A stretch of DNA of 64,000 bases, taken from positions 1-64,000 of the forward strand of contig JAFGKY010000114.1 in assembly GCA_016928305.1 (NCBI GenBank), written 5' to 3'. The position numbers were made by a program, and so were the translations under genes. Source of the stretch: Bacteroidales bacterium (GTDB lineage Bacteria; Bacteroidota; Bacteroidia; Bacteroidales; UBA10428). Below are positions 1,810-22,631 of the stretch, one piece after another. Under the pieces are notes generated by a model. That model saw only the letters and a program-made list of their open reading frames with translations, searched no databases and was not told where the DNA came from. Position 1 is the stretch's first letter, and every line of letters starts with the position of its first letter.

Positions 1810-4800
1810 CTATCGGGAAATCACCAGTTTTTGCAGTCCGATAAACTGATTATCGGATGTAATCCGTATGAAATAAAATCCATTCGGACAATCATCCATA
1901 GTTACTGCATATTGATTGGTACCGGGGAATAATTCTTTAGTCATAACCAGTTTTCCGTTGATATCGAAAAGGTCGATCCTGGCTTCTTTATTAAGCGTTT
2001 CATCAAATCTGAGGCAGGCTTCATTGTATACGGGATTTGGAAAGACTATGAAGCCGTTGCTGCTGTTACTGAGATGAATGGTATTATCTTTCTTGATACC
2101 CACGTGAAGATCGTATTTATCAATGGCTGCCTGGTAGACTTCCCGGGTTGATTCGTCCTGGATAAATGCTACGACCCTTATCTCATCGGTATTATATGTA
2201 TATTTCAGATTCCAGTTCTTGTTGATGACTACAGGATTCATTTCCGGATCCCAGTTGTTGGTGTATGAGGTACTGGAAAGTATCGTTTTCAATACACTTT
2301 CGAACAAGGTATCTCCGTTTGCCCCGGTTTCATCGGTCACCATCCGTTCAATAACGGCAATATGCAATGTTACCTGCTTATCCATAATCACCTCCAGGGG
2401 TCTGAACTCAACGATTACATTCAGGGAGTTATTTTGCAAAGTCGAGGTTATGTCCAGGCTGAATTTTGGTTTCAGCAGGGATTGTTTCTTCACAAATGTG
2501 GCTATGTCTTCATCAATATATTCAAATCTGAATTCGCCGGTTGTTCCCCCATTGAGGATGGACATCGGAACCGAGGTTAACTGATAAAATAATACGCGTG
2601 TACCCGGATCCACTTTGTTATGTTCATTAAAAGGATCAACACCCGGGAAGGAGGTGTGATACTGGATGTCAATAATATCCCAGGGGTTGAGGTTGGCAAG
2701 CGCATCCAGTGCTGAATCAGCCGACCGGGAGGTGAGGTCACTGGCATTGGTAAAATGTTCAATCAGAGAAATTTTGGAACGTTCAAGGATTTCCATATTG
2801 TCAAATGCGAAGCCATGGGTTCCTATGGCTGTTCCATCAGAGCCGTATGCTAAACGGAACTGGACGTTTTGCTTACCTTTCAGTTCATCAATACTGTGTC
2901 TTGCGGAAACGTATTTGCTATCCTGTTTTTGTGACCAACCAATAGGCTGCCCACCCGGATTTCCGGATATCTTATAATTGAGGTACCAGTTGATCCCGTC
3001 ATCCAGATCACCGATATTCTTCCATGATGTCATATCGTCGGACTTATATTGTAAAACGGCACCATCGCGTTCTTCTTCAAAATACCTCCATATATCGAAT
3101 TTAATCATAGGTTTTTTGATCCCATCGAAATCAAAGCATGGCGAAGTTATCCAGGATTGTTCCAGGGGAGCCCGGCCTGTTTCCTTATCCTTTGTAATGT
3201 CGGTCCACCATGCATATTCCCCCCTGGCAGCACCATTAAACCCTTTGCCGTATGCGTCGGGTTGTGGCAAACTAAGGTTCCATGAGTTAACAGCAGATAT
3301 ATCCTCATTATTGTCTTTAATCCATCCGGGTGCTCCACTTTCAAATCCTTCAAAATAAGATGCTCCTTCCACCAATGAATGCGTGGGTTTTAAAGGCAGG
3401 GTTTTTATGATTGTATCCGTGCAACCTTTGTTTGTGGTGACCATAAGTTCCACATCGTAATTATCCGGTTCAGTAAATGTATATTCAGCATTTTCTGTGT
3501 TGAAAGTGCTGTAGGTTATGCCGTTAAAAATTTTCCATTGGTACTGGGTAATGACACCTTCATTAAACCCTGACTCATTGGTAAATTCAATTTTCTTTCC
3601 TTCATGGAAACATTCACTATTCCATGAGAAATCAGCAGTAGGTTTGTCACCGAAGTAAAATGTAATCTCACGTTCACTGCTGCATCCTTGTATAGTGGTT
3701 GCCGTCAGTTTTACATCCCTTCTTTCGGCCTTTTTATAAAGATGTTTCGGATTTTTGAGGGTAGAATAATTGTCACCTCCGCTTGCCTGGTCATCATCGA
3801 AGTACCATAACCACGCCTGGATCGGATCCGTTGAAGTGGTCAGGTTGATAAATGCCGTGGAATCTGTGATGCCAGCGTAAATACATGTATCTCCAACGGT
3901 GAAATTGGTATTGGGAACATCGTATATGGTTAACGCTTTGAAAATCCTGTTATAGCATCCTTTCGGTGCTGTGAATGTATAGAAGACAGTATCCGGACTC
4001 GATTGTGCCAACTGTGGATTATAATAGAATCCTGAAATAATATTGCCGGTGACAGCCGGGCCTGTAAAAACACCTTCGAGGGGATTTGCTGTCAGCTTTA
4101 CCTGATCATTATCATGGCAGAATGAAACATAATCGAAATTAACAAATTCCAGATCAGGAACAAACTCAACTTCAAAACGTTCCTGGACACTAAACGGCAT
4201 TCCTTCATCGTAATATTCATAGGTTACGGTATAGTATCCTCCGTTCAATTGTGACGGGTCAATCGTAGCGGTGTTATCACCATTGTCAACCAGGCCTGTT
4301 TCTGCACTGATGGTAAATGTGCCAATAACGTTTGCAATATTGTTAGCGACAATAGTAAAGCATGAATCATTGGAACAAAATAGTTTCTTCGTATCGTTTT
4401 CAGGGAATGTGATTTCGGCATTGGCAGACATCACGGTAACGATGGCTGTGTCATATCCGTAACATCCTGTCGCAGGATCGCGGAATGAATATATAAAGGT
4501 ATGTACACCAATTCCATAGTAATAGGGAGAGAAGTAGTTCGTATCATTGATTTCCCATAAAGGAGGAGTAAAAGAGCCGTTTTCAGGATTGCCGAATACC
4601 GGAATTAAACTTTTATCGTCTTTATTATAGGCGGGTACAAGTCCTGAAATAGTTACTACCGGCGCAGGTGTGACGGTTACCTGGGCATTGCCCGAAACGG
4701 TTCCATTACAGTATTTGTCCGAAACGCTTACCAGGGTATAGGTGCCTTCCTGGATTACCGGTATAAACCGGGGTGAAGATGTGACATTTTCTATGGTGGA

Positions 4801-7800
4801 AGGAACTTCGGTGCCACGGTGGTAACTGAATGTCCATGGAGCAGCACCGGTAAGTGTTACCCGGAGATTCGCTTCAGTATGTTCGCAAATGGAGCCGGTT
4901 CCCGAAATCGTTGCTGTAGGAACCGCATAGTGCACTACGGTAGCTGTTCCTGATACACAACCGTTTCTGATCTGGTCAGTGACTTCAGACAGGGTATAGA
5001 TACCATTACCAACAACTTTTAATGCATAATCTGATTCTAAAATATCATCGATCGTTTCTACATATATACCGTTGCGCAAATAAGTTATACTGAATGGCGC
5101 TATTCCGGTAAGCTGCACCCGAAGGGTTGCCGTATCACCCGGACATGTGGTGTCCACACCGGAAAGCACAGCTTTGGGAGAGGTTATTTCAGTTATTACA
5201 GCTGTTCCGGAACCGGTGGTATCGCCCGTACAAAATTGATCGTAAAGACTGGCTACCGTATAGTTACCTGTTTTGCTGACATTGATGTCAAACGGATCTG
5301 CAGTGATATCCGTATAGGTTGTGTCATCCTCATTCCTCATCAAAACAAAGGTCCACGGAGCTGTACCTGTGAAATCCAGGGTAAGGCGAGTGGTAACATC
5401 CGGACATATAAAGGCAGAACCGGTTAATTTTACAGTCGTTGCAGGACGTACGGTAATGGTGGCTGAACCGTAAACAAGACCTTCGGTATAATTCAGATCG
5501 GCTACGTTAATAACGGTATAGGTACCGGCAATGCTGGTAAAAAAACTATACGGAGATTCGGAGATGCCTGAAATTACAGTGTCTCTCGGCAGGGGACCAC
5601 CGGTTCTTTGGATTGTGATTGTCCAAGCAGGTTCACCGGTGAGATCTACCTCAATGGTATCTTTCTGATAGGAACAAATAATGCCTCCTCCGCTTATAGT
5701 GGCAGTTGGAACATAACTGATTGTGCGGGTCTGGATATTGCTATAGGCTGTACCATCAGATACACGGAACTCCACTGTTCTCGGAGTGGTATTTGGATTG
5801 TCCGGATTAATATTCTCATACTGCACACTTCTCAGGGCGGTCCGGTAATTTGCCAATGATGCCGTACCGATAAGTGACAATACACCTGAACCTGTATTAT
5901 AGTTTCCATTAATACCATTTGCGTTGGTATACCTTAACCTGTCCTCTGCACTTTGGCGGTTGGTGATGGTAACAGTGGCTGAAGCAAGGGTGACATTATC
6001 GGTATCGGATACGGATATTGTGGAGGTAATATTTGCAGGGCCTGAACCGGCTATATAGGACAGCGGTGTTTCTTCAATACCCGATAATACAGGTGCATCG
6101 TTAACCGGTATTACGGTTATATCCCGGGTCAGGGTGTTGCTGGGATCATCCCCGTCGTTAACCGTGAAAGATACGGTACGGGTTAACGCGGAAGGGTTCT
6201 CGCTTGTATTCTGATAGCGAACGTTACGCAATGCAGTGCGGTAATTGGCCAACAGTGAATGGCCGGATAAGGAAAGCATGCCTGTGGTCTGATTCCATAT
6301 GCCTGTTATACCATTGGCACTTGTAAAAGAAAGCGTGTCCTCTCCGTTCTGGTAATTAGTGGTAATCTGAACGGTGGCTGATTCAAGGTGAGTATCGTCA
6401 TCATCACTGATATCCAGGGTTGCTGTTATAGTTGTTGGTGCGGCATTTTCGGTGTATGCCAGCGGGGCTGTTTCAAGGTTACTTAATTCAGGAGGATCGT
6501 TAAGGGAACCCACAACAATGTTTCTTGACTGTAGGTTGCTGTTTTCGATACCATCGTTTACCCGGAAGGTAATCGTTCGTGTGGTGGCCGTGGGATTTTC
6601 GCTGGTATTTTCGTATTTCACATTCCGAAGGGCAGCCTGATAGTTTGCAACCAGTGAATTACCTGTTAGAGCCAGTGTACCTGTTCCAGGATACCAGGTA
6701 CCTGTTATACCATTAGCATTGGTAAATAATAAAGTGTCTTCACCGGATTGATAACCCGGACCAATAACAACAGTTGCCGATTGAAGGTTGGTATTATCAA
6801 CATCAGCCACAGAAAGCGTTGCAGTGATATTCACTGCCCCGTCACCTTCACTATAAGCAAGATTTGAGGTTTCAATGCCCGATAATAAGGGGGCATCGTC
6901 CACCGGGGTAACCGTAATATTGCGGGTTTCTGTATTGCTGTTTGCATCTCCGTCATATACTGTAAACGATACCGTACGTACCTGGGTAGTAGGATTGTCA
7001 CTGGTGTCCTGGTAAGAAACGTTCCTCAATGCCGTGATATAGTTGTCCAGGGTGGTTGAACCCGTGAGATTAAGTCTGCCACTGGCCGGAATCCAGGTCC
7101 CTGTGATATATGGGGTATTGGTAAAAGCAAGGATGTCCTGCCCGTACTGGTAATTTGAACTGATCCGGACAACAGCCGATTCAATATTTGTATCGTCTGC
7201 ATCGGTAATAGTTATCAGATCCGATATGTCCACAGCAGGATTATCTTCAGTATAGGAAAGTACAGAGCCTTCAAGGTTATCCAGAATCGGGGCATCGTTT
7301 ACCGCCATAATGGTGATGGTAAAGGGTAAAGTATTGCTGTCATCGTCACCGTCGTTTACTAAAAAAGAGACGGTACGCTGCAACGTTGAAGGATTATCAC
7401 TGGTATTCTGGTAGGTAACGCTTCTCAGTACTGTTCGATAAATAGTCAGACTGGCAGATCCGGACAAGTAAAGAGTACCATCTTCGACTTCAAAATAACC
7501 GGAAACGCCTCCGGTACTTGTGAAGGCAAGGGAATCACAGTCTATCTGATAACCTGAAGTTATGGACACAGTGGCCGATTCCATATTTACATCATCGACA
7601 TCGGTAACTGTGATAGAATTCGTAATTTGAACAGGGTCATCACCTTCGGTGTAATTGATTGAAGTTGAACTGATAGCTGCCAGCACGGGTGGGTTATTTA
7701 CAGGTGTAACTGTAATATCACGGGATACAGTATTGCTGTAATATAAACCATCATAAACAGTAAAAGATACGATTCGTTTTACAGATGAAGGATTTTCACT

Positions 7801-8175
7801 TGTATTCCGGTAAGTAATGCTTCTAAGGGTTGCCTGATAGTTTTCAATACTGGCAATTCCGCTGAGACTAAGAATTCCGGTGCCGGCATTCCATGAACCG
7901 GATATGCCCCCATAGCCGGTAAATGTTAGAACATCTTCGGTACTCTGACAATTTGTTACTGTTATGGTAGCCGATACCAGGTTGCCGTCACCATCCTTAA
8001 CAGTGATGGAACCGGTTATCTGAACGGCACCGTCGCCTTCGGTGTAACTAAGTGCAGAAGATTCAATATCACCTAATTCCGGGGCCACCTGTGCATAGCT
8101 CCCAACAGAAAATGACAGGGTGAAAAGGAAAAGCAATGAATACAGCCTGGGTATCCGCAATAGTGTGACTTTCAT
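1810..8175 (-). CDS. Giant secreted multi-repeat surface protein (6 cadherin-like repeats, about 4 smaller Ig-like repeats, PKD-like region, Omp28-like domain, T9SS type A sorting domain)
   Basis: 2121-aa ORF; signal peptide; repeats of form YTEGDGAVxITxxITVxDxDxxxxxSATVxI...VNDAPVL; C-terminus VFPNPVYNEACLRFDE...NGFYFIRITSDNQFIGLQKLVISR typical of a T9SS CTD. Confidence 0.9.
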   Translation of the reverse strand: MKVTLLRIPRLYSLLFLFTLSFSVGSYAQVAPELGDIESSALSYTEGDGAVQITGSITVKDGDGNLVSATITVTNCQSTEDVLTFTGYGGISGSWNAGTGILSLSGIASIENYQATLRSITYRNTSENPSSVKRIVSFTVYDGLYYSNTVSRDITVTPVNNPPVLAAISSTSINYTEGDDPVQITNSITVTDVDDVNMESATVSITSGYQIDCDSLAFTSTGGVSGYFEVEDGTLYLSGSASLTIYRTVLRSVTYQNTSDNPSTLQRTVSFLVNDGDDDSNTLPFTITIMAVNDAPILDNLEGSVLSYTEDNPAVDISDLITITDADDTNIESAVVRISSNYQYGQDILAFTNTPYITGTWIPASGRLNLTGSTTLDNYITALRNVSYQDTSDNPTTQVRTVSFTVYDGDANSNTETRNITVTPVDDAPLLSGIETSNLAYSEGDGAVNITATLSVADVDNTNLQSATVVIGPGYQSGEDTLLFTNANGITGTWYPGTGTLALTGNSLVANYQAALRNVKYENTSENPTATTRTITFRVNDGIENSNLQSRNIVVGSLNDPPELSNLETAPLAYTENAAPTTITATLDISDDDDTHLESATVQITTNYQNGEDTLSFTSANGITGIWNQTTGMLSLSGHSLLANYRTALRNVRYQNTSENPSALTRTVSFTVNDGDDPSNTLTRDITVIPVNDAPVLSGIEETPLSYIAGSGPANITSTISVSDTDNVTLASATVTITNRQSAEDRLRYTNANGINGNYNTGSGVLSLIGTASLANYRTALRSVQYENINPDNPNTTPRTVEFRVSDGTAYSNIQTRTISYVPTATISGGGIICSYQKDTIEVDLTGEPAWTITIQRTGGPLPRDTVISGISESPYSFFTSIAGTYTVINVADLNYTEGLVYGSATITVRPATTVKLTGSAFICPDVTTRLTLDFTGTAPWTFVLMRNEDDTTYTDITADPFDINVSKTGNYTVASLYDQFCTGDTTGSGTAVITEITSPKAVLSGVDTTCPGDTATLRVQLTGIAPFSITYLRNGIYVETIDDILESDYALKVVGNGIYTLSEVTDQIRNGCVSGTATVVHYAVPTATISGTGSICEHTEANLRVTLTGAAPWTFSYHRGTEVPSTIENVTSSPRFIPVIQEGTYTLVSVSDKYCNGTVSGNAQVTVTPAPVVTISGLVPAYNKDDKSLIPVFGNPENGSFTPPLWEINDTNYFSPYYYGIGVHTFIYSFRDPATGCYGYDTAIVTVMSANAEITFPENDTKKLFCSNDSCFTIVANNIANVIGTFTISAETGLVDNGDNTATIDPSQLNGGYYTVTYEYYDEGMPFSVQERFEVEFVPDLEFVNFDYVSFCHDNDQVKLTANPLEGVFTGPAVTGNIISGFYYNPQLAQSSPDTVFYTFTAPKGCYNRIFKALTIYDVPNTNFTVGDTCIYAGITDSTAFINLTTSTDPIQAWLWYFDDDQASGGDNYSTLKNPKHLYKKAERRDVKLTATTIQGCSSEREITFYFGDKPTADFSWNSECFHEGKKIEFTNESGFNEGVITQYQWKIFNGITYSTFNTENAEYTFTEPDNYDVELMVTTNKGCTDTIIKTLPLKPTHSLVEGASYFEGFESGAPGWIKDNNEDISAVNSWNLSLPQPDAYGKGFNGAARGEYAWWTDITKDKETGRAPLEQSWITSPCFDFDGIKKPMIKFDIWRYFEEERDGAVLQYKSDDMTSWKNIGDLDDGINWYLNYKISGNPGGQPIGWSQKQDSKYVSARHSIDELKGKQNVQFRLAYGSDGTAIGTHGFAFDNMEILERSKISLIEHFTNASDLTSRSADSALDALANLNPWDIIDIQYHTSFPGVDPFNEHNKVDPGTRVLFYQLTSVPMSILNGGTTGEFRFEYIDEDIATFVKKQSLLKPKFSLDITSTLQNNSLNVIVEFRPLEVIMDKQVTLHIAVIERMVTDETGANGDTLFESVLKTILSSTSYTNNWDPEMNPVVINKNWNLKYTYNTDEIRVVAFIQDESTREVYQAAIDKYDLHVGIKKDNTIHLSNSSNGFIVFPNPVYNEACLRFDETLNKEARIDLFDINGKLVMTKELFPGTNQYAVTMDDCPNGFYFIRITSDNQFIGLQKLVISR
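4650..5705 (-). repeat. About four tandem protein repeats of roughly 85-90 aa, second repeat class
   Basis: Recurring pattern (A/V)xISGxGxIC....L.V.LTGxAPWTxxxxR...GxYTVxxVxDxxCxGxxxGxAxVTV; boundaries approximate. Confidence 0.7.
5706..8085 (-). repeat. Six tandem protein repeats of about 132 aa (cadherin-like)
   Basis: Units begin APELGDIESSALSYTEGDG, PPVLAAISSTSINYTEGDD, APILDNLEGSVLSYTEDNP, APLLSGIETSNLAYSEGDG, PPELSNLETAPLAYTENAA, APVLSGIEETPLSYIAGSG; boundaries approximate. Confidence 0.85.
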
Positions 8176-8419: not shown

Positions 8420-9640
8420 TCAGAATTTTCCTCCGGCTTTGGTTTTGATAAATGTCATGCTGCTGAAGTTGTTGCTCAGGTTAGTGCCGGAAATAATAAA
8501 ACCTCCGTCGGATGAAAAGCCAAATGACTGGCTTTCCATTTGACTTGACCCGCCAATCGTCATGTATTGCTGACTTTCATCCTCTAATGTAGAGGTAATA
8601 ATAGAAATAATACTGGTCTTGTCACCATTTGACCAGGTTGACAAAATATGAATTTTGTTGTCTTCAGACTGTATGCAGGTACCTTTGTCAACACCTGAAT
8701 TATTAAAGCTCCTGGTCCATTCCCTTTCATATCGTACCTTATTATCATCAGCGTATACTTTTTTAATTTTATAAAGGAGGACGTCTGTTTCTCCTGCAAT
8801 ATCAGAAGTGGTACCGCAAATTAAGTAAGTGTTATCAGTAAATACTGTTAATGAAATGGCTTCTTCGTTTGCATTGTTTTCTGACTCTTCCCATGCTTCT
8901 GCCCTATAATCGTTAGTTATGAGTCGTATAAAGGAATGTTTAACGGGAAAAGATGAGTTAAAAAAATTTGAGATGCCGGCCACCAGCCAGCCATCATCGA
9001 TACGTTGTACATAGCTTGCTTCGTCAACATCCGTAGGCCCCCCAATTTTTATAGGTTGGTATGAGTTTATCTGATTGCCTTTTTGATCCACCATATATAT
9101 CCATATTTGTTTGGACATACCGGATAAGTCGGTCACGGTTGAATATCCAGCCATCATAATATCCCCGTTTTCGTTCAGATCGAACCATTTTCCTTCATCA
9201 TCCTTATTTTCTCCACCATCATAAGATTTTGTCCAAATGGTATCTCCCAGGTGATCCGTACGGATCAGCCAGATATCCTTATCATTGGTTCCTGTTGTTT
9301 TCTGTGTGGAACCAAGTATTATAAATCCTCCGCCGGAAGCAGGTTTAATACAATACCCCCGGTCATCTTTTGATTTTCCGATGAGTTTGGCCGATTGAAC
9401 CGAATTTCCATAGGCATCGGTGATGATCAGACAGATCTCCCATCCCTGTAATTCAGTTTTGGTATTACCCAGGAATGCGTATCCTCCGTCACTAATTTCA
9501 CATACGCCTGCACCTTCATTAACCTGGTTGAATGCATAGTATTTTATGAATGATTCAGATTGTTCAGTGCTGATATTATAATTATCACATGAAAACAACA
9601 AGGGTGTCAGGATTATTGCAGTATGTATGTAGCCTTTCAT
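8420..9640 (-). CDS. Lipoprotein with predicted beta-propeller-like repeats
   Basis: N-term MKGYIHTAIILTPLLFSCDN (lipobox LFSC); repeated DGGYAFLGNT / GGGFIILGST / DGGFIISGTN motifs. Confidence 0.75.
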   Translation of the reverse strand: MKGYIHTAIILTPLLFSCDNYNISTEQSESFIKYYAFNQVNEGAGVCEISDGGYAFLGNTKTELQGWEICLIITDAYGNSVQSAKLIGKSKDDRGYCIKPASGGGFIILGSTQKTTGTNDKDIWLIRTDHLGDTIWTKSYDGGENKDDEGKWFDLNENGDIMMAGYSTVTDLSGMSKQIWIYMVDQKGNQINSYQPIKIGGPTDVDEASYVQRIDDGWLVAGISNFFNSSFPVKHSFIRLITNDYRAEAWEESENNANEEAISLTVFTDNTYLICGTTSDIAGETDVLLYKIKKVYADDNKVRYEREWTRSFNNSGVDKGTCIQSEDNKIHILSTWSNGDKTSIISIITSTLEDESQQYMTIGGSSQMESQSFGFSSDGGFIISGTNLSNNFSSMTFIKTKAGGKF

Positions 9641-9644
9641 TGTG

Positions 9645-10715
9645 TTACTTTTGTTTTTTCGGACTGTAAAATGAAAAATAATAGCCTATCGATAAAGTGA
9701 AGGTATGAAGGCTGAAATCATCATCCTGGTATTTATACTGGCTTAATGCATAGGTATTTTCAAAACGCTTATCAGGCAGGACAATATTATTGATCCCGAA
9801 ATTATACTGAAGATCAACAGCCAGAAATCCCCTCGGGATTTTATAATGCAATCCCATTCCTGCTATTGCGCTATAATACAGGGAATTACGATAATCTTTC
9901 AGATCTGTGCTTTCACCTGTGGAAGGTTGTTTGTTAATGGTACTGGAGGGGGTACCGGAAATCGTAAGTATATAATTAACGGATGCTCCGGCACGGAGGA
10001 AATAAAGCAATTTTCCGTTGTTAATCTCATAGAGGACCGAAACAGGGAAAGTAATTTTTTGCAGTTTTTCCTTAAAGGTATAAGCTTCCTTGTATACTGT
10101 CCCGTCTTCTCTTGGAATCGTATTTTCATCCGTAAAAGAATATTGATGCTGGGCAAAATGCAGTTCCATGTTGAGCATCAGCCGTTTTCCAAGATACCTT
10201 CCTGCTCCTATGCCTGCCTGATATCCCGTACCGGAAGCATTGCTTAATTCGGTGGTATGTTTATCCAGCATTGAATAAGGTTTTATAATGCGGGGATTGG
10301 TAAGGTTGATCCCGGCTATCAGACCAAACGAAAATTCGGATGTAGTACGATACGATTCGAAGAGATGAATAAACTCCACCGGATCATTCGGCATGATCTC
10401 ATATTCGGGATATTTCTTCAGGAACTCAGTCATGGTCCTTTCTGCGTCAAACTGATTGTCATCGAACAGATAGGCCAATATAAGCAATTTGTAAGCTTCA
10501 ATTTTTTGTGTACGGGTAAAGCCTTCCTGCATGCAGGAAGCGAGCATTTTGGGAATTTCGTCGATCATACCGAGGTCATAAAGATTTCTGGCTTCCTGCA
10601 ATGTTTTAGAGCAATCTTTTTGTGCCTGCGAAGACAGGGAAATACCAATAAACAACAGTACCAACAGGTACCCGGAAAAGTTTTTTGTAAATGAGGATTT
10701 GGTTAACAGGGGCAT
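9645..10715 (-). CDS. PorT-like outer membrane beta-barrel protein with N-terminal helical (TPR-like) segment
   Basis: Signal peptide, KDCSKTLQEARNLYDLGMIDEIP helical segment, then alternating aromatic strands ending FTLSIGYYFSFYS. Confidence 0.75.
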   Translation of the reverse strand: MPLLTKSSFTKNFSGYLLVLLFIGISLSSQAQKDCSKTLQEARNLYDLGMIDEIPKMLASCMQEGFTRTQKIEAYKLLILAYLFDDNQFDAERTMTEFLKKYPEYEIMPNDPVEFIHLFESYRTTSEFSFGLIAGINLTNPRIIKPYSMLDKHTTELSNASGTGYQAGIGAGRYLGKRLMLNMELHFAQHQYSFTDENTIPREDGTVYKEAYTFKEKLQKITFPVSVLYEINNGKLLYFLRAGASVNYILTISGTPSSTINKQPSTGESTDLKDYRNSLYYSAIAGMGLHYKIPRGFLAVDLQYNFGINNIVLPDKRFENTYALSQYKYQDDDFSLHTFTLSIGYYFSFYSPKKQK

Positions 10716-10727
10716 TATCGTTGGGTA

Positions 10728-13700
10728 TTATTTATTTTTACATGTTTTACGGTATTCAATATCAGGACTGACATAGTTTTCCCATTCACGCTGTGTAAAA
10801 TTCCTTTCGAGTTTTGAGCACAGGATATCTGCCATTTGATCTGCATAGACCGGCCAAACATAAATATAATTCGTTTTGGACAGATCACTCTGGTTGGCTG
10901 AAGATACAAGAAACCTGCCGTCGGGGCTGAAAGAAACGGAAAGAACAAAGTTATCGCCGTGTTCTTTTAGCACTACCGGTTTGTTATTCAGGTTATTGGC
11001 ATCCCAGATTCGCAATGATTTGTCGGTACTTGCAGTTGCTATTTGCCGGTCATCCGGGCTGAATTCCAAATCCATAATGGGGGCAGCATGTGCGGCAACC
11101 GTTCGGATAATTGTATTTGTTCTTGCATCCATTATTCGCATGGTTCCGTTTTTATCTCCAAAAGCAATTTTTGATCCGCTGCTATTGAAAGTTATGGCAT
11201 GGATTTTATTCCCGTCAGACTGGAACAGGATGGTCTTTTCCGTGTTGTCGATATTCCAGCGTATAACTTTTCCATCATCTGTTCCAACAACGATAAACCT
11301 TCCGCCAGGTGATACAGAAAGACAGCGGATTTTACTATCCGCTTTAACAAATAAGGAGTTGGTTCCTGCAATCAGATCCCAGTAAATTATGGTGTTATCC
11401 GTACTTGATGAAAAAAGGCCTTTGTTATCACTGGTAAATTCAAGTGCTTCAATCCATCCTTTATGACCTTCAAGATAAGCAGGTGCAGTATTCGATTGAT
11501 TAAGGTTAAACAATTGTATGCCTGTGGTTGTAGTTCCACATGCCAGCCAGCGTCCGTTTTTACTGATGGAAAGACTGCGGTTGATGAAATTATTATCGAT
11601 CAGTGTACGGAATGATTTTGAATTACCGGTCAGATCCCATCGAAGGATTTTACCATCGCTTCCGGAACTATAAAAGACGTTGGTATTTCCGACGAAGGCA
11701 AGGGACCGGATAGCTCCTTCATGGCCGTGCAAACCATTGTAATTCTTACCATTAAAGGCAACCATGGCGGCATACAGGGCGTTGTAAACATCGGGTTGAT
11801 TTACCTGGCCTTCATAGTCTCTATTGAATATATAGGATTGCAGGGCAAGCAATCCGGTAAGATTTTTATCTTCAACCTGAAGGGCTTTAGATGCCATGGC
11901 TTGTGATATTGATAGCATCCGTTTTTGTGCAGCCAGCATTTTTTCGCGGTCGGATTGAGTTTTTTGTTGTATGGCAGTTTCAGCGGTTTGCTCAGCCTGT
12001 GTCTTCTCCTGCAGAAATCTTTCACTGCGCTTTGCAGCTGCATCGGCTTGCTGAACTGCCAGTAACTTTTCTTTCTCAAAAAGCTGTGACTGGAATAATG
12101 CCTGAGCCTTTTCACGGTCGGCAGAATCTGCAATAAGCTGTGCCAGCAAAGCCTCTACCTCAGCCCTGTCGGCTTTGGCATCGGACAGGATTCTCAGGCT
12201 ATCGGCTTCGCGTTTCCGGTATTCAGCTTCATCCCTTTGATATTGAGCTTCTATGCTCTGTTCGATGGCTTTTTGACGTTGTGTAAGGGCAAAAACAACA
12301 AGAAACGAAAGAACCACGGCTGCCAGAAGCGCATATACTGCTAATTTTCGGGTTCGGTTCAATTCAAGCCGTTGTATTTTCACTTTGTTTTGTTCTTCCT
12401 GCAGGTATTTCTTTTCACTTGAATCAAGAAATACCATTACTTTTTCAAATGCAGGATTGTATTTTTTTGCCCAGGCGAGGGTAGGATTTTGGGTTTTTTT
12501 CCAGTTCAGTGCCAGGTGCAGATCCGGAGGCCTCCAGAGACCTGTTTTACCAAGCTGGAATTGAGACGATGCTTCGGCCAGGCGCAGGTACATCTGAACC
12601 GATGAGAATTCTTCATCCACCCAGGTTTTCAGTTTATCCCAGATTCGCATCAGGCTCTCGTGCGAAATATCAATCACGGTTTCACTGTCGATGGGTGTTC
12701 CTTCAACCGGAGTAAGAAAGGAACGCCCTTTGGCACGGAATCTTTCCACTACCTCTATGACGCTGGCATCGGGGACCTTTGCAATTTCAGCCAGGTAGCG
12801 GACAGTAGCAGGGTGGCGGGTGCCTTTATTGTCTGTGCCTTTTTCCGTAAGGCATTTAAAAATACTCTTGCAAACGCGTTTCCCATCGTCGGAAAGCTCG
12901 TCAAAAGCTTCATTTGCATGCATCGAAAGGGCGTTTTCAACCTTTCCGGCTGCTTCGTAATCTCTCATTTTTATGGGAACAGCAGGATCGTTATTATGTG
13001 CCCAACATTCCCAGGTACGCATCATGGCATGCTGCAATACCGGCAACTGGTCAGATTTGTCCTCAATGGAGTTTAGAATGTGATGCAGTAACTGCGAATC
13101 GATTTCCGCTCCTCCAACGGCTAACGGACCAAGAACTGCTTCACGAAAATCATCGCGGGTCATCTGCGGGATAAGGAAATTGCTTTTGTTGATAAGCTTT
13201 GTGAGTTCCTGAAACTGCGAACATTCACCGATAAAATCGCTGCGCATGGTAAGCACTACATATATCGGATATCCTTTTTGCCGGATGGCATTCACAAGAA
13301 GTTTGATATAGGCCTCTGTTTCATTTATGGCCGTATTGTCTTTCCGGCTTTCCTTGAACCGGAATAACTCTTCAAACTGGTCGATGATCAATAAAATATT
13401 TTCGTTTTCCGGTATCTTCATTTGCCGGATTGCATCAACCAGACCAAATGAACTTCGCCTGAGAACCGATAACAATATTTGCTTGCGGATAAAAACATCG
13501 TCATGAACGAGCTCGTGTTGTTCGTTTTTGGCAAGTGCTTCGGCAAGATTTTCAATGGGGCTGTTTCCGGGTCTTACAGCTATAATTTTCCAGTACGATC
13601 CGGTATTGGTTATAAAGCCCCCATACAGGGTCGGAATCAGTCCGCAATAAATCAACGATGATTTTCCGCTTCCCGATGCACCGGTAACGGCAGCAAAATG

Positions 13701-13853
13701 ATTTCTGGCCAGGTGTTCAAGTACGATTTCACTTTGCCCTTCCCTGCCAAAGAACAAATGACTCTCTTCCACGGTAAAAGGCCTTAATCCGGGGAAAGGA
13801 TTGGTAATGGATAAAGTTCCTGTTTTAATATGCCGTGTTACGTTTTCAGTCAT
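10728..13853 (-). CDS. STAND-type NTPase (nSTAND1-like) with single TM, coiled coil and C-terminal WD40 repeats
   Basis: NPFPGLRPFTVEESHLFFGREGQ, Walker A GASGSGKSSLI, Walker B ILLIIDQFEELFRF, VVLTMRSDFIGECSQF; TM LAVYALLAAVVLSFLVVFALT; WD40 units such as GHEGAIRSLAF..RWDL, GHKGWIEALEFTSD..IYWDL, AHAAPIMDLEFSPD..LRIWD. Confidence 0.88.
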   Translation of the reverse strand: MTENVTRHIKTGTLSITNPFPGLRPFTVEESHLFFGREGQSEIVLEHLARNHFAAVTGASGSGKSSLIYCGLIPTLYGGFITNTGSYWKIIAVRPGNSPIENLAEALAKNEQHELVHDDVFIRKQILLSVLRRSSFGLVDAIRQMKIPENENILLIIDQFEELFRFKESRKDNTAINETEAYIKLLVNAIRQKGYPIYVVLTMRSDFIGECSQFQELTKLINKSNFLIPQMTRDDFREAVLGPLAVGGAEIDSQLLHHILNSIEDKSDQLPVLQHAMMRTWECWAHNNDPAVPIKMRDYEAAGKVENALSMHANEAFDELSDDGKRVCKSIFKCLTEKGTDNKGTRHPATVRYLAEIAKVPDASVIEVVERFRAKGRSFLTPVEGTPIDSETVIDISHESLMRIWDKLKTWVDEEFSSVQMYLRLAEASSQFQLGKTGLWRPPDLHLALNWKKTQNPTLAWAKKYNPAFEKVMVFLDSSEKKYLQEEQNKVKIQRLELNRTRKLAVYALLAAVVLSFLVVFALTQRQKAIEQSIEAQYQRDEAEYRKREADSLRILSDAKADRAEVEALLAQLIADSADREKAQALFQSQLFEKEKLLAVQQADAAAKRSERFLQEKTQAEQTAETAIQQKTQSDREKMLAAQKRMLSISQAMASKALQVEDKNLTGLLALQSYIFNRDYEGQVNQPDVYNALYAAMVAFNGKNYNGLHGHEGAIRSLAFVGNTNVFYSSGSDGKILRWDLTGNSKSFRTLIDNNFINRSLSISKNGRWLACGTTTTGIQLFNLNQSNTAPAYLEGHKGWIEALEFTSDNKGLFSSSTDNTIIYWDLIAGTNSLFVKADSKIRCLSVSPGGRFIVVGTDDGKVIRWNIDNTEKTILFQSDGNKIHAITFNSSGSKIAFGDKNGTMRIMDARTNTIIRTVAAHAAPIMDLEFSPDDRQIATASTDKSLRIWDANNLNNKPVVLKEHGDNFVLSVSFSPDGRFLVSSANQSDLSKTNYIYVWPVYADQMADILCSKLERNFTQREWENYVSPDIEYRKTCKNK

Positions 13854-15310
13854 TTTTTAATAATCTGATCCAGAAAATGATGTATGGCCGTATTGTTAAT
13901 TTCTTCATTCCAGATCACCGTGACATTGCGTAAAAATAATAAAGATTTATCAGTTGTTTTTTGCGGTGAAAAAATTCCGATGGCTTTAAAAGGTTTTTCT
14001 TTACCAAATCCGGGTACTTTGACAAGATCCCGTATTTTGCTGTTCAACCATTCCATGGAGCTATTACCTTTATAAATAATAACGGCATCCACTTTTTTTA
14101 ATGTTTTAACATGATCGGTAATGGACAAATATTCTTTTCCGGCAGTATCCGCGGTAATGATCCTGAATCCACGATTCTGAATGAGAGCAACATATTCCTG
14201 TAATTTTTGTTTTTCCGGCTCTTCGTGAAGGAAGTACAACGAATAGCCCGGTTCTGCATGAGTCTCATGTAAATTGGATATTTCATTCAATTTATTGTTC
14301 ACAAGGGTTTTGAACACCTCGAGGGGGGCTTCTATGATTTCAGTCCTTTCCTGCGTTTCATCACGCTTCATCCGTTTCAGGTACAGTGACTGTCGTTGAT
14401 CGGTGGTTTTCAGATCACTGGGTATCCAAATGATCTGGTAAGGTTTGTTTCGGTTTTCTTTGGATTCTATAAATTCTTTAACCACACGGGCTTGAAAATC
14501 AATCAATGAATATTTGGCATTTTTTATAAAATCTCCGTAAAAAGCTCCCATCATATGAATAGCCACCACGGATTGCTTCAGATTATCCTCCATAATAGTC
14601 CGGGCATGTTCGCTATCATTGGGTATTGTCAAAACCGGGAGTACTTTATATCCCAGATGCCGTAACTCACGTTTCAGAATGTCGCGGTTTTCCTGCTGAT
14701 CAAAACTGGTCTCTGCCAGAAAGATAGCATTGTTATCAGCGATGTGGCTTTTTGTCTTATTCTGGTCTTTTAGCTCATGCAGGGAGTTATAGATATCATA
14801 GGCCAGGTCAATCAGTTTTGACCAGAACTTATCATCCGGCAATTGATTCTCCTGTAGCTGAAAGCTAACGGGTTTTTTACTATAGCGGTTAATCTCAAAA
14901 AAATTATACTGGAGCTCGGATTTCAGTGAATCAGGTTCTTCACCTTCACGAAGGGGAAGAGTTAGTATTTTAAAGATCCTGTTGTTGGTTTTATCGGCTC
15001 CGGAAGCATGATACACGGCTTCATAAATGTTATTCAGTTCCTTTAAATAAGAATCTGATTTAACATCTTCAGGAGTAACAATCGCAACAAACACACCGGT
15101 TTTCTTAAAAATATCAACCGGATCTTCATTCATTAATTGCTGCCGGGTTCGCAAATCGTCATGCAAAAGTATGGTTGGTTTCTCATCAAATAAACGCTGC
15201 AATACAACATGCAAATGATGACAAAACTGCTGCACCCAGGGATTCACTTGCTGATTGTCCCGATTTGAAACGGCTTCGTAACTGATAAATATGTCATACT
15301 CAAAATTCAT
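13850..15310 (-). CDS. TIR-like domain protein with additional DUF4062/TIR-like segments
   Basis: MNFEYDIFISYEAV start typical of TIR; ...GVFVAIVTPEDVKSDSYLKEL; second segment NNAIFLAETSFDQQENRDILKRELRHLGYKVLPV; third segment GYSLYFLHEEPEKQKLQEYVALIQNRGFRIIT. The stop overlaps the NTPase start (ATGA, 13850-13853). Confidence 0.75.
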   Translation of the reverse strand: MNFEYDIFISYEAVSNRDNQQVNPWVQQFCHHLHVVLQRLFDEKPTILLHDDLRTRQQLMNEDPVDIFKKTGVFVAIVTPEDVKSDSYLKELNNIYEAVYHASGADKTNNRIFKILTLPLREGEEPDSLKSELQYNFFEINRYSKKPVSFQLQENQLPDDKFWSKLIDLAYDIYNSLHELKDQNKTKSHIADNNAIFLAETSFDQQENRDILKRELRHLGYKVLPVLTIPNDSEHARTIMEDNLKQSVVAIHMMGAFYGDFIKNAKYSLIDFQARVVKEFIESKENRNKPYQIIWIPSDLKTTDQRQSLYLKRMKRDETQERTEIIEAPLEVFKTLVNNKLNEISNLHETHAEPGYSLYFLHEEPEKQKLQEYVALIQNRGFRIITADTAGKEYLSITDHVKTLKKVDAVIIYKGNSSMEWLNSKIRDLVKVPGFGKEKPFKAIGIFSPQKTTDKSLLFLRNVTVIWNEEINNTAIHHFLDQIIKK

Positions 15311-15319
15311 AGAATCGTT

Positions 15320-18300
15320 TTACGCTGGTGATTCTTCTATTAACTCAAATAACAACTTCCGGAAATCAAGGTTGTCAAAAGCCAGATTATTTAACATTTC
15401 CAGATCAAGGCTGAAAAAAGTAAGATCGGTAACAGCCCTGAAAGAAAATGCTTCATATACAGAGAAAATATCGCTGTAAATTATATCATTTTTACTAAAT
15501 GTAAATACTTTATTGGCGGAATTCCTGATTTCTACCTTTCCGGCCTGAATAACAATCAATGGATAATGAACATCATTTTTCTTGATCAGTAGCTGGTCAT
15601 TGGACGATAAATTATTCAAATCCAAATGCTTGGAAATTTCCAGTAATATATCTTCATGAATGGTTTTGCATTTTTTAACGTCCTTCAAAAACCGGATCCT
15701 GTCAATGAGCAGGTACGGGACTTTCCGGTTTGTAGCCCGTTCAAGGGAATTCTGTATTTCCAAAACCGCAGTGGGATCAAGGCGTGGGAAAACTGAATTT
15801 AGATATCCGGGTTCAATTTGTTCAATAACATACGAGGCCGATTCGCGGAATACTCTGTCGGGGTGAAATAACATAGCTATTAATTCCTGGCTGATATGAG
15901 GATGTCTTATCTTGAGCAGGCTGAAAATGGCACATACTTTTGTATAATAGGAAAGTGCATTGAAATCACGTATAATTATCTCATTAATAAGGTCTTCAGG
16001 ATCTTTTTTTTCGGTCTGGAAAAAATATTCAAGCTGCTTAACCCTGCTGCTGATTGAAAGATTCTCCACCACCGGGAAAAATACCTGTTTGATTTCCTCA
16101 TTTAAAATCTGATCAAGCATCTCGATGGCAAAACTGATATCGGTATCATTGCCTTCTGAAAGCAAATTACGGATATTATTGATTGAGGCAGTATTATAAG
16201 CCAACGCCAGTAATTGGAATAATGTGTCATAATTGTCTTTAATTTCCGATTCAAAGGCTTCATGCAGCAACGGAAATTTTCTTGATTTATTCAGTACCTG
16301 ATAAACAGAATAATTCCATGCCATAACAGTAATCAGGCGTATTATGCTGTTTAATATACGGTTTAGATTGGTTGGCGTAGCCTGGAATTTTGCTTCACGC
16401 AAGGAAAATATAGCCTGGCGTGTGAGATATCGGTTCTGGTTTTCTATTTTGGTCAACAGCAGATCAATGGCTTTAGGACTTCCGATTTTGCCATAGATTC
16501 TGATAATCCTTGAGAGCAAGGTGTTATCAGCATCCGGCTGAAGAAAGACCTGTTCAAGGCTCTCAAGAGCCGGGTCTCCGATTTTAATAAGGGCTTCAAA
16601 AGCAAACTGATAATAACCGGGTGTGGACAGATAGCCAATCAGGACATGACTGTGTTCGGCGCAATTCAGACGGGCCATCGCTCTGATTGCTGAAATTTTA
16701 ACTTCAGGTTCAATATCCCTTGAAAGGCTCATCACAATATCATTCCAATCCATTTTCCCCGATGTACCCGCAATTTCTGCTGCTAATATCCGGTCATTGA
16801 TATTATGGGAGTTTGATAAAAGGGTCAGTGTTTCCTTGTCTTGACCGAAGCTTAGCTTTGTTTCAAAGCGATTCATTATACGTCGAGCCAGTGTATGGGC
16901 TTCCTTATTCTGGGTCTCTTTGAGTGAGGGTGCTTCTTTTAATACCGGTAAAGCATTAAGTACAGAGTATTCATCGATCTTTTCAAGAAGGTACTTTTTT
17001 ATTTCAAAGGAGCTCGAAGCTAATAAACCGATCAGATGTTTCTCATGCTGTATAGGTTCAATACGTTCAAATAACGACAGGGCAGTTATCACCTTTTTTG
17101 GATCAACATGATTGATCAGGCTATGTGCCTTTTCATCTGTACTTGTTAATTCATGTTCTATCAGTCTTATATTTGATTTCAGCCGTCTGATCCCTTCAAT
17201 AAGAGCTTTTTGATAGGCTTTTATCAGTTTTATCGCAACCACAAGCCATGCAATTGAAAGCAGCAGTATTAAAAAGTTCTGAAACAACTCGTTTTTCAGT
17301 CCGATATAAAGAAATCCAAGCAAAAGAAGTCCTGCAATTCCTATTCCGGTCATTCGCAAGGTACCGTCAATACGGGGAATAATAACGTTATGGAAACGAA
17401 TATCGAGAGTACGGAACAAAACCTTTAATGAGGGCCCTTCAATGGCATCGCGTGTAATCTGATAACCTATTTTTACCATGGTGATCATAAGGAAAACATA
17501 GGTGAAACGGGTAAGGGTTGCCGATGATCCTCCCAGAAAGTTTACAAGAAGTAAAGCAATTGTTGCCAGTCCGATACCAGCCGGGATTAATACAAGGCTG
17601 TAAGGAGAATCATAAGAATATAGTATTTTGCGGATCAGGGATTTTTCAACAAAATAAACCACGATTATCATTACACCCATGAAAAAAGCCAGGAATTTCG
17701 AAAAACCAACCAGTTTGGGATATGTTAAACTGGCCAAAGAAATGAACTGAAAATGAACTAAATATGCAATAATAGTAGACAGAATGACAAAGGCTACTAA
17801 CAGCAGTGTATATCGTGTATAGAACATTTCAATAAATTTCGAGCGAATCGGATTCAATTTTTTCAGCGGATGATACAAAACCGGAGAAAAACGATGAACT
17901 ACATTCATGATTAGCTGCAATCCTGCTATAATTACCATAAAACCAATACATGCCAGCAACATCAGATCCCGATCCCATGTAAAATAGAACAAGGCAACCA
18001 GCAGAAAAGATGCCACTATCATACCACTTATCTGAAATGCTCTGATATAAGGATATAACCTGCGGCTTTGTGCCGGTGTGTATATGTTTCGCATCGATCG
18101 CCAGAACACCAGCAAGGTAATAACGGTAACCGGAAACATCAATGAAAGTGGTACCATAAGGGATATTCCATAGATCGAAACGCTGCTGATGGGTTCGTAA
18201 AAATACACTGCGCTAATTGCCAACAATATAACAAGATAATTTGCCAGGATAAAAAACCTGAAATCGAGCCGGTTTGAAAAGAATACATAAAATAACATAT

Positions 18301-18499
18301 AGACTAAGCCCAGGAATCCTGAAATAACAAGAGTAATAGGAATCATACTGCTGTTGTGTGATTGAAAGAAAATAACATGTGCACCGATATCAAATGTTAC
18401 CAGGAACGCTCCTGTAAAGAGGGCCTGTATGCAAGAAAGAAAAAAGATAAAAAATTCGCTGGCTTTCAAATCTGCTTTATTTGGGAACGGGATTTTCAT
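15320..18499 (-). CDS. ATP/ADP-translocase-like MFS membrane protein with HEAT repeats and degenerate cyclic-nucleotide-binding-like C-terminus
   Basis: About 12 hydrophobic segments in the N-terminal half; HEAT-like helical repeats (VKISAIRAMARLNCAEHSHVLIGYL..); C-term VIQAGKVEIRNSANKVFTFSKNDII..FSFRAVTDLTFFSLD. Confidence 0.7.
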   Translation of the reverse strand: MKIPFPNKADLKASEFFIFFLSCIQALFTGAFLVTFDIGAHVIFFQSHNSSMIPITLVISGFLGLVYMLFYVFFSNRLDFRFFILANYLVILLAISAVYFYEPISSVSIYGISLMVPLSLMFPVTVITLLVFWRSMRNIYTPAQSRRLYPYIRAFQISGMIVASFLLVALFYFTWDRDLMLLACIGFMVIIAGLQLIMNVVHRFSPVLYHPLKKLNPIRSKFIEMFYTRYTLLLVAFVILSTIIAYLVHFQFISLASLTYPKLVGFSKFLAFFMGVMIIVVYFVEKSLIRKILYSYDSPYSLVLIPAGIGLATIALLLVNFLGGSSATLTRFTYVFLMITMVKIGYQITRDAIEGPSLKVLFRTLDIRFHNVIIPRIDGTLRMTGIGIAGLLLLGFLYIGLKNELFQNFLILLLSIAWLVVAIKLIKAYQKALIEGIRRLKSNIRLIEHELTSTDEKAHSLINHVDPKKVITALSLFERIEPIQHEKHLIGLLASSSFEIKKYLLEKIDEYSVLNALPVLKEAPSLKETQNKEAHTLARRIMNRFETKLSFGQDKETLTLLSNSHNINDRILAAEIAGTSGKMDWNDIVMSLSRDIEPEVKISAIRAMARLNCAEHSHVLIGYLSTPGYYQFAFEALIKIGDPALESLEQVFLQPDADNTLLSRIIRIYGKIGSPKAIDLLLTKIENQNRYLTRQAIFSLREAKFQATPTNLNRILNSIIRLITVMAWNYSVYQVLNKSRKFPLLHEAFESEIKDNYDTLFQLLALAYNTASINNIRNLLSEGNDTDISFAIEMLDQILNEEIKQVFFPVVENLSISSRVKQLEYFFQTEKKDPEDLINEIIIRDFNALSYYTKVCAIFSLLKIRHPHISQELIAMLFHPDRVFRESASYVIEQIEPGYLNSVFPRLDPTAVLEIQNSLERATNRKVPYLLIDRIRFLKDVKKCKTIHEDILLEISKHLDLNNLSSNDQLLIKKNDVHYPLIVIQAGKVEIRNSANKVFTFSKNDIIYSDIFSVYEAFSFRAVTDLTFFSLDLEMLNNLAFDNLDFRKLLFELIEESPA

Positions 18500-18686: not shown

Positions 18687-19277
18687 TTAAATCTTCTTTT
18701 CATTTCTTAATTGCCTGCATATATCTTCGACTTCGGTCTTGTTTCCTTCGATGACAAATCGTGCCCTGCAGTAATGATGTTCGCAACGACGACGCAAATC
18801 AGCCACATAAGCCCGAAGCTCTTCTTCCGTTCTTCCTTTCACAACAGGCCGATGACCTATGGTAGCTTGTAATCGTGATACCAGTGTTTCGTCATCCACC
18901 TTTAAATATATTATATCGCCATATTTTTCCATCAGGCTCATGTTGTCGCTGTGACAGGGTAAACCACCGCCTGTAGAAACAAGAATATTATCGCTTTGTA
19001 TGACTTGCATAAGCGCTTCCCGTTCTTTGCGTCTGAATTCCTCTTCTCCGGCATTCAGAAAAATTTCCGGGATAGTTTTGCCCGCTTGTTGTTCAAGGAA
19101 TTCATCAAGATCTACAAATGCAAGATTCAGACGTTCAGCCAGTTTTCTCCCCAGGGTAGTTTTACCACTGCTTTTGTATCCGATGATAAACAGTCTCAAA
19201 TAAAAAAGATTTATAGCGTACAAAGATAATCGCAATGTGTGGATTATGGCAATCAGTTTCTGGCTCCGTTGTAACAC
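18687..19277 (-). CDS. aroK: Shikimate kinase (probable true start TTG near 19200)
   Basis: [61 protein letters not shown]. Confidence 0.93.
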
Positions 19278-19340: not shown

Positions 19341-21068
19341 ATGAATCCCTTTGAATTAAGCGAACAGGAAGAAATACGCAGGCAAACGCTGGAAGAACTT
19401 AAGAAACTTGGCATTGATCCTTATCCTGCGTCAGCTTTTCCGGTTAATACAAACACCCGTGAGATAATTGAAAACTATTCGGCTGATAAAAGCAATTTCA
19501 GCGATGTGTGGATTGCAGGGCGGTTAATGAGTAAACGCATTATGGGCAGTGCCTCTTTCGCGGAAATCCAGGATGAAAAGGGAAGGATTCAAATTTATCT
19601 CAAAAGAGATGATTTGTGCCAGGGAGAGGACAAAACCCTGTATAATATTGTTTTTAAGAGATTGCTTGATATTGGTGATTTTATTGGTGTCAGGGGATAT
19701 GTTTTCATTACCCGGATGGGTGAAATATCAATTCATGTTAACCATTTGAAACTATTAAGCAAATCACTCAAACCACTTCCCATTGTTAAAGAGAAGGACG
19801 GAGTTGTTTATGATGCTGTTACCGATCCGGAATTCAGGTATCGGCAACGTTATGTCGACCTGATTGTGAATCCTTCCATAAAAGAGGTTTTCAGGATGCG
19901 TACAAAGCTAATCAACTCCATGCGTCAACTGTTTGATTCCAGGGGGTATCTTGAAGTTGAAACACCTGTTCTCCAGGCTATCCCCGGCGGTGCTGCTGCT
20001 CGTCCCTTTATCACACATCACAATACGCTGGATATTCCACTTTACCTCAGGATAGCCAACGAACTGTATTTGAAAAGACTTATTGTAGGTGGTTTCGAAG
20101 GCGTTTATGAATTTTCCAAGGATTTTCGGAACGAAGGCATGGACAGGACTCACAATCCTGAATTCACCGTTTTGGAAATTTATGTAGCCTATAAGGATTA
20201 TCTGTGGATGATGGATTTCGTGGAGGAGATGATTGAAAAAGTCGCTCTTGACTTGCATGGAACAACTAAAATTCCTTATGGCAAACAGATCATTGATTTT
20301 TCCAGACCCTTTAAGCGGATGTCCATGGTTGATGCTATTAAACAGTATACGGGTGTAAATGTCAGGGATATGCGTGAAGAACAATTGCGAACTGTCAGCC
20401 GGAACTTTGATATAGAAACCGATGCAACCATGGGTACCGGAAAACTGATCGACAAACTTTTCGGTGAAAAGGTGGAGCCTCATCTGATACAACCTGTATT
20501 CATTATGGATTATCCGCTTGAAATGTCACCACTTTGCAAGAAGCATCGGACGGATCCTGGCCTCACTGAACGGTTTGAGCTCATCGTTAACGGAAAGGAA
20601 TTATGCAATGCCTATTCGGAGTTAAATGATCCCCTTGATCAGCGGGAACGATTCCAGGAACAGTTGCGCCTTGCGGAAAAAGGCGATGACGAGGCTATGT
20701 ATATCGATCAGGATTTCCTGCGAGCCCTGGAATATGGTATGCCACCTACATCCGGACTGGGAGTTGGAATCGACCGGCTTACTATGATCATGACAAATCA
20801 GCCCAGCATACAGGATGTTTTGTTTTTTCCGCAGATGCGCCCAGAAAGAACAGAACAACCCGACAATAAAGAGAAATTTATGACATCGGGAATTCCGGAA
20901 CAATGGTATCCAGTGTTACAGCAATTAGGTTATAACACCATTGAGAAAATACGAAAAATTGAAAAACCCGGAAAACTTCATCAGGAAATATGTGGTTTTA
21001 ATAAGAAAAACAAGCTAAACCTGCAAAATCCCTCACCGGAAGAAGTCATCCGTTGGATTTCCGGATAA
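19341..21068 (+). CDS. lysS: Lysine--tRNA ligase (class II)
   Basis: Full-length Lys[74 protein letters not shown]. Confidence 0.97.
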
Positions 21069-22322: not shown

Positions 22323-22359
22323 TTGCATAATACGGACAAAATATCTATATTTGTACGTA
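22323..22359 (+). promoter_or_regulatory. Candidate promoter with overlapping inverted-repeat operator of the toxin-antitoxin pair
   Basis: TTG (22323-22325), 20 nt, TATATTTG (22346-22353); inverted repeat TACGGACAAA (22331-22340) / TTTGTACGTA (22350-22359), 9/10 matching. Confidence 0.55.
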
Positions 22360-22373
22360 TTAAAAACTTTTTT

Positions 22374-22631
22374 ATGGATTCAAAATTAACATTGAAACTG
22401 GATAAATTTGTGATAGACAAGGCAAAAGACTATGCTTCGACACACAAAAGGAGTCTTTCTCGAATAATTGAATCTTATCTGAGATCTTTAATCAATAAGA
22501 ACAAGAAAGAGAATAATGATGATATTGAGATATCTCCTTTTGTAAAAAGTATAGCTACAGGTGTCAAAATTCCCGATGATTTCGATATCAAAAAGGAATA
22601 TGGCGATCACTTAACACAAAAGTATCAATGA
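22374..22631 (+). CDS. Antitoxin (DUF6364-like) of PIN-domain TA pair
   Basis: MDSKLTLKLDKFVIDKAKDYASTHKRSLSRIIESYLRSL; overlaps the downstream PIN gene by ATGA. Confidence 0.85.
   Translation: MDSKLTLKLDKFVIDKAKDYASTHKRSLSRIIESYLRSLINKNKKENNDDIEISPFVKSIATGVKIPDDFDIKKEYGDHLTQKYQ

Follow-up and report, generated by a model that had tools for sequence, protein, structure and literature searches.

The window, by which we mean the whole 64,000-nucleotide stretch of DNA analysed here (positions 1 to 64,000 of contig JAFGKY010000114.1, assembly GCA_016928305.1), comes from a Bacteroidales bacterium and carries five consecutive minus-strand genes encoding an NTT-like membrane protein, a TIR-like protein, a STAND NTPase joined to a WD40 propeller, an outer membrane β-barrel and a propeller lipoprotein. 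Comparison of gene neighbourhoods indicates that these genes form an inherited, conserved unit, to which a giant surface protein exported by the type IX secretion system (T9SS) also appears to belong. On balance, we consider this cluster somewhat more probably than otherwise to be a trans-envelope signalling relay of Bacteroidota. Its static architecture, with the giant and the lipoprotein, the barrel, the WD40 propeller, the stalk and the NTPase placed in turn across the envelope, is predicted with good confidence.

Gene content and layout

The five intact open reading frames occupy positions 8420-18499, and the gaps between them, in the order MFS, TIR-like, STAND, barrel and propeller, are 9, -4, 12 and 4 bp, as an earlier interpretation made from the DNA letters alone (the sequence-only reading) had described. 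The distance from the propeller gene to the giant open reading frame (1810-8175) is 244 bp rather than the 245 bp given there. Open reading frames were called mechanically, most of the genomes compared are draft assemblies, and contamination of the window genome is 6.8%. Promoter and terminator counts in the region lie close to the shuffle means, so an operon boundary cannot be drawn from them. The features are as follows (all on the minus strand).

15320-18499: NTT-like MFS protein with HEAT repeats and a C-terminal cyclic nucleotide-binding (CNB)-fold domain, 1059 aa (open reading frame call, Pfam, family profile)
17210-18499: NTT-like membrane part of the same protein, about residues 1-430 (profile match to 9j3j; TLC Pfam match in relatives)
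15323-15697: CNB-fold domain without a recognisable phosphate-binding cassette (profile match to CNB domains)
13850-15310: triple TIR/DUF4062-like protein, 486 aa, overlapping the STAND gene by 4 bp
14321-14734: middle (DUF4062-like) TIR-fold unit, with Gln 273 at the catalytic-glutamate position
10728-13853: nSTAND1 NTPase with a single transmembrane segment, helical stalk and seven-bladed WD40 propeller, 1041 aa
12555-13799: nSTAND1 NTPase domain with Walker A motif (Pfam PF20703, 6e-93)
12288-12344: transmembrane helix of the STAND protein, residues 504-522, with a positive N-terminal flank
11883-12287: helical stalk of the STAND protein, residues 523-657, predicted periplasmic (AlphaFold2, low confidence in part)
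10845-11750: WD40 propeller, predicted periplasmic (Pfam, AlphaFold2 model, fold matches)
9645-10715: outer membrane β-barrel with signal peptide and N-terminal TPR-like domain, 356 aa (Pfam OMP_b-brl_2, 2e-14)
10338-10622: TPR-like N-terminal (putative docking) domain of the barrel, common to TonB-dependent receptors and kinase-linked barrels
8420-9640: β-propeller lipoprotein, 406 aa (CylK propeller, 5e-35; lipobox)
1810-8175: giant T9SS-exported surface protein, 2121 aa, with Ig/PKD-type repeats and Por_Secre_tail (Pfam PF18962, 1.3e-14)

The domain assignments of the sequence-only reading stood for all five proteins, except that the TIR-like protein has no TIR match of its own in Pfam and only a marginal match to DUF4062 (3e-4).

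Conservation of the cluster

Relatives of the TIR-like protein were found in 24 of the 246 genomes of the order. Neighbourhoods were compared at 23 loci, 20 of them from the order-wide sample and three from a contig-level scan of genomes, which yielded only these three close relatives. The STAND gene directly follows the TIR-like gene at every one of the 23 loci, the barrel and propeller genes come next wherever the contig reaches, and the MFS-HEAT-CNB gene is adjacent upstream, either to the TIR-like gene or to a SpoIIE gene, in 17 of 22 evaluable loci. Among 396 genomes sampled from the phylum, the same gene order also occurs outside the order, in three genomes from one family of the same class (L081-L083). 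The suggestion that the five genes belong together is thus supported, both within the order and by a second family. Synteny is retained at about 20-30% protein identity, and because the arrangement is conserved across families, chance is excluded; the genes and their layout are ancient. Between the five proteins, pairwise distances are correlated (Mantel r 0.76-0.90, p 0.001), as plain co-inheritance would also lead one to expect. For the TIR-like gene, comparison with L048 gives a dN/dS ratio (non-synonymous to synonymous divergence) of about 0.11, at a dS that is close to saturated. In one locus (L040:13322-14319), a Xre-RES toxin-antitoxin pair is inserted between the STAND and barrel genes of an otherwise intact cluster.

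The unit proved to be larger than the five-gene module first proposed, which had overlooked a SpoIIE phosphatase and whose coordinates left out the giant. In most relatives, a protein of 650-690 aa is encoded between the MFS and TIR-like genes and comprises an N-terminal sensor region, a HAMP domain and a SpoIIE/PP2C domain whose PP2C aspartates are invariant in 15 members. No full-length relative of this SpoIIE sensor was found in the window genome, in its genus and family mates or in several other lineages, so that the gene was either lost or never gained in the window lineage. Relocation elsewhere in the window genome was rejected, given that only PP2C-domain paralogues are present there. 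Beside the SpoIIE gene of another locus lies a HAMP histidine kinase gene that shares part of its profile (L041:3857-6364), which suggests that the sensor was duplicated and its output domain exchanged. Separately, some families of the order have greatly expanded sets of SpoIIE-type phosphatases, with 47-82 matches in each genome (G192, G089, G163 and G055).

At other loci, too, a gene for an equivalent giant comes after the propeller gene; it encodes about 1600-3600 aa and in many cases lies only 3-72 bp away. Por_Secre_tail scored over the cut-off in all 10 homologous giant C-termini tested, as it did in the window giant, which has both the signal peptide and the C-terminal sorting domain of a T9SS substrate, and SprA is present in the window genome. 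The propeller homologues all have a lipobox.

Predicted topology of the STAND protein

The Walker A motif is conserved in 22 of 23 STAND homologues, in keeping with membership of nSTAND1. All 23 have just one hydrophobic segment, at about residues 495-527, with a positively charged N-terminal flank in nearly all of them, which by the positive-inside rule places the WD40 propeller outside the cytoplasm. AlphaFold2 models a helix from residue 469 to 657 with one break (469-558 and 565-657), followed by a seven-bladed WD40 propeller whose fold matches include Apaf-1. The 135 residues beyond the transmembrane segment would form a helix of about 200 angstroms, a length comparable to the periplasm's width. 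SPOR domains bind peptidoglycan, and SPOR-like tails below the Pfam cut-off follow the WD40 propeller in L032 (E 0.011) and L035 (E 0.0035), although these are only a hint of a periplasmic location. Taken together, the transmembrane segment, the stalk model and the SPOR-like tails lead us to predict that the propeller is periplasmic. The envelope-spanning layout put forward in the sequence-only reading is supported.

A shared, putative docking domain on outer membrane barrels

Homologues of the barrel carry signal peptides, and its N-terminal region of about 95 residues is a TPR-like domain common to TonB-type receptors. The barrel profile matches the N-termini of these receptors at profile positions of about 2-122, whereas other stretches match at noise level. 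No Pfam family is named for this docking region, and its best neighbours in the PDB are TPR proteins with insignificant E-values. A profile built for the domain was searched in the order and in the phylum; the order matches partly repeat the loci used for training, and the phylum set therefore serves as the independent test. Thirteen new loci in the phylum scored at least 60 bits. Directly upstream lies a STAND-WD40 gene in nine of these and a gene for a Ser/Thr kinase with a transmembrane segment and PEGA repeats in the other four, three of which also contain a PP2C phosphatase gene. Matches below 60 bits lack a partner of this kind within 1.5 kb and may fall outside the domain family. The four kinase loci (L164-L167) show a transmembrane Ser/Thr kinase-PEGA protein adjoining an outer membrane protein with the TPR-like docking domain, with the PP2C gene nearby in three.

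The domain is retained where the barrel has been swapped for a TonB-dependent receptor. Sister clusters, reached through a search with the MFS protein, contain a STAND gene, a TonB-dependent receptor gene, an enzyme gene, the MFS-HEAT-CNB gene and a gene for either a Reg_prop/Y_Y_Y histidine kinase or a SpoIIE protein. Such clusters were seen at nine loci (L054, L057, L058, L059, L068, L069, L070, L170 and L171). Where checked, their docking-domain barrel is a TonB-dependent receptor; the enzyme gene, found in several, is formyltransferase-like or HMGL-like, and the SpoIIE form is a Y_Y_Y-SpoIIE protein. The facing of barrel and inner membrane partner is seen as a conserved gene pairing and a predicted topology only.

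TIR-like and NTT-like proteins

Homologues of the TIR-like protein match DUF4062 (16 of 24), TIR_2 (12 of 24) and TIR (5 of 24). Its model (predicted local distance difference test score, pLDDT, 81) contains three tandem TIR/flavodoxin-like α/β units, and the fold matches, although with weak E-values, include the TIR domains of MyD88, SNC1 and RUN1. Homologue matches, model and fold search thus agree on a TIR fold. At the catalytic-glutamate position, assigned by sequence alignment rather than structural superposition, unit 1 has Glu in 11 of 24 homologues, unit 2 has Gln in 22 and unit 3 has Lys in 21; even the close relative L049 lacks the glutamate in unit 1. Furthermore, the TIR-like gene is absent from two otherwise complete clusters (L052 and L055). 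The proposal of a cytoplasmic TIR effector acting on NAD+ is not supported by these observations, and a TIR NADase was rejected because the catalytic glutamate is not conserved across the 24 homologues.

Two families, with at least three genomes between them, show a second conserved TIR/STAND arrangement, in which a TIR+DUF4062 protein gene is followed by two tandem nSTAND1-type genes of 1351 aa each (L084:8609-18357, L086:1409-11005 and L087:9247-18976). The nSTAND1 assignment in this pair was confirmed by Pfam for one gene in L084.

The 1059-aa protein combines an NTT-type MFS part, HEAT repeats (HEAT_2, 2.8e-10 in Pfam) and a CNB fold, which is the NTT-HEAT-cNBD architecture. Positions 93-425 of the family profile match the chloroplast ADP/ATP carrier 9j3j (E 4e-17). 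The NTT-like partner proposed in the sequence-only reading is thus present, and nucleotide transport is its putative activity. The profile also matches the CNB domains of cGMP kinases and PycTIR. The conserved GE...R phosphate-binding motif is absent from the CNB domain in 18 aligned homologues, and a role as cyclic nucleotide monophosphate sensor was rejected on this ground. The TIR-like and CNB domains are therefore probably structural or interaction modules.

A proposed trans-envelope relay and its alternatives

In the proposed relay, the state of the surface (contact, a ligand, load or damage) would be reported to the barrel by two components at the outer membrane, the giant and the propeller lipoprotein. 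The periplasmic TPR-like domain of the barrel would dock on the WD40 propeller that caps the stalk. Docking would release the cytoplasmic STAND NTPase, which may then assemble with the triple-TIR protein as an adaptor scaffold, not an NADase. Output would pass through the NTT-like membrane protein with its HEAT and CNB parts and, where present, the SpoIIE phosphatase. Both this function and the direction of signalling are inferred from sequence.

Several points weigh against the relay. The topology of the STAND protein rests on hydropathy and charge, its stalk model is of low confidence around residues 516-578, and WD40 proteins as a rule reside in the cytoplasm. G117 has no giant, nor does the second copy of the cluster in G130, and the 244 bp before the window giant make its place in the operon putative. 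Nor is the output arm fixed: the MFS gene is non-adjacent in 5 of 22 loci (in L064, L065 and L067 it lies elsewhere in the genome), and SpoIIE or TIR is missing in some lineages.

The main rival is a machine for export, assembly or retention of the giant, in which the STAND NTPase would use ATP in the cytoplasm and the stalk would transmit force or conformational change outward as far as the barrel and the lipoprotein, by which the giant would be anchored or displayed. The placing of a giant with a T9SS tail closely after the propeller gene in most loci, the conserved Walker A NTPase and the fact that all genes face the envelope would suit such a machine. The SpoIIE/HAMP partner and the histidine kinase or SpoIIE partners of sister clusters, however, are regulators rather than secretion parts, and the kinase-PEGA versions of the docking domain point to signalling. 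T9SS, moreover, is near-universal in the order (232 of 246 genomes) and the cluster is rare, which argues against a general T9SS part and led us to reject a T9SS core component. Overall, this rival is unlikely, though the strongest of the alternatives.

A system for anti-phage or inter-bacterial conflict, with the barrel and surface protein sensing attack and the TIR effector killing or arresting the cell, is still less probable and survives from the sequence-only reading as a low-ranked rival. TIR, STAND and WD40 modules do recur in bacterial conflict systems (PMC7159879; PMC8195603), and the distribution of the cluster (24 of 246 genomes) is patchy. The unconserved glutamate in all three units and the dispensable TIR-like gene do not fit this role, and the neighbours are housekeeping genes. 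Searches of 50,697 phage and 72,556 plasmid records gave no match, and PADLOC matched no complete system, only generic WD40, HEAT and P-loop proteins; a known defence system was accordingly rejected, as the sequence-only reading had expected of this layout.

That the genes are no functional unit, only co-inherited neighbours of an NTT-type transporter with a metabolic role, is very improbable: NTT-HEAT-cNBD fusions are widespread without the cluster (PMC5381601), many in genomes without a TIR-like gene, but synteny persists at 20-30% identity and in a second family, and sister clusters of other make-up also keep the STAND, barrel and NTT genes together.

The relay thus remains our preferred reading. 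In the usual view, STAND switches sense within the cytoplasm. Should the topology and docking prove correct, Bacteroidota would have a means of linking them through both membranes to the cell surface, where T9SS adhesins would provide the input; the widespread, uncharacterised NTT-HEAT-CNB proteins would gain a testable context, as parts of a signalling complex and not simple nucleotide importers; and the unnamed periplasmic domain would mark other outer membrane receptors with inner membrane signalling partners. A broader and more tentative possibility is that barrels of differing kinds carry one docking domain that plugs into membrane-anchored STAND-WD40 or Ser/Thr kinase-PEGA proteins, with an apoptosome-like STAND/TIR assembly answering to a giant adhesin, as a new class of whole-envelope signal transduction.

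Neighbouring genes

Upstream of the cluster lies a shikimate kinase gene (18687-19277, Pfam) and, further upstream on the opposite strand, a lysyl-tRNA-synthetase-like gene (lysS, 19341-21068, named from its translation). At 22323-23050 (plus strand), a small gene pair resembles, by translation only, an antitoxin and a PIN-domain toxin (VapBC-like).

Comparison with known systems

The cluster is apparently undescribed; neither the cluster nor a STAND protein paired with an outer membrane barrel was found in the open-access literature searched, which is weak evidence of absence. PorE of the T9SS is an outer-membrane-associated component that is not known to contain a STAND NTPase, and in that respect it differs from the cluster. 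As in the cluster, TPR and WD40-type parts occur in PorE (PG1058), an envelope protein of Bacteroidota that is linked to the T9SS (PMC5053529).

NTT-HEAT-cNBD fusions, found in many bacteria with no characterised function, have the same three parts as the 1059-aa protein, and cAMP control of ATP uptake has been proposed for them (Major et al., 2017; PMC5381601). In contrast, the CNB domain here has no phosphate-binding motif, and the gene is part of a STAND/barrel/T9SS cluster. Apaf-1 and the nSTAND1 proteins named in bacterial conflict systems (PMC8195603) share the NTPase and seven-bladed WD40 propeller with the window protein, which differs in the transmembrane helix and long stalk between the two and in the predicted periplasmic position of the propeller. 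TIR NADase effectors and MyD88-type adaptors share the TIR fold, but the window protein has three tandem units and no conserved catalytic glutamate, and would work more like an adaptor than an enzyme.

In FecA-FecR-FecI signalling, an outer membrane barrel with a periplasmic N-terminal domain has a single-pass inner membrane anti-sigma partner. For the cluster, gene pairing and predicted topology suggest that the barrel's periplasmic N-terminal domain may likewise face a single-pass inner membrane protein. No anti-sigma/sigma factor pair was found among its genes, however, and the inner membrane partner is a STAND NTPase, or elsewhere a Ser/Thr kinase, instead of an anti-sigma factor.

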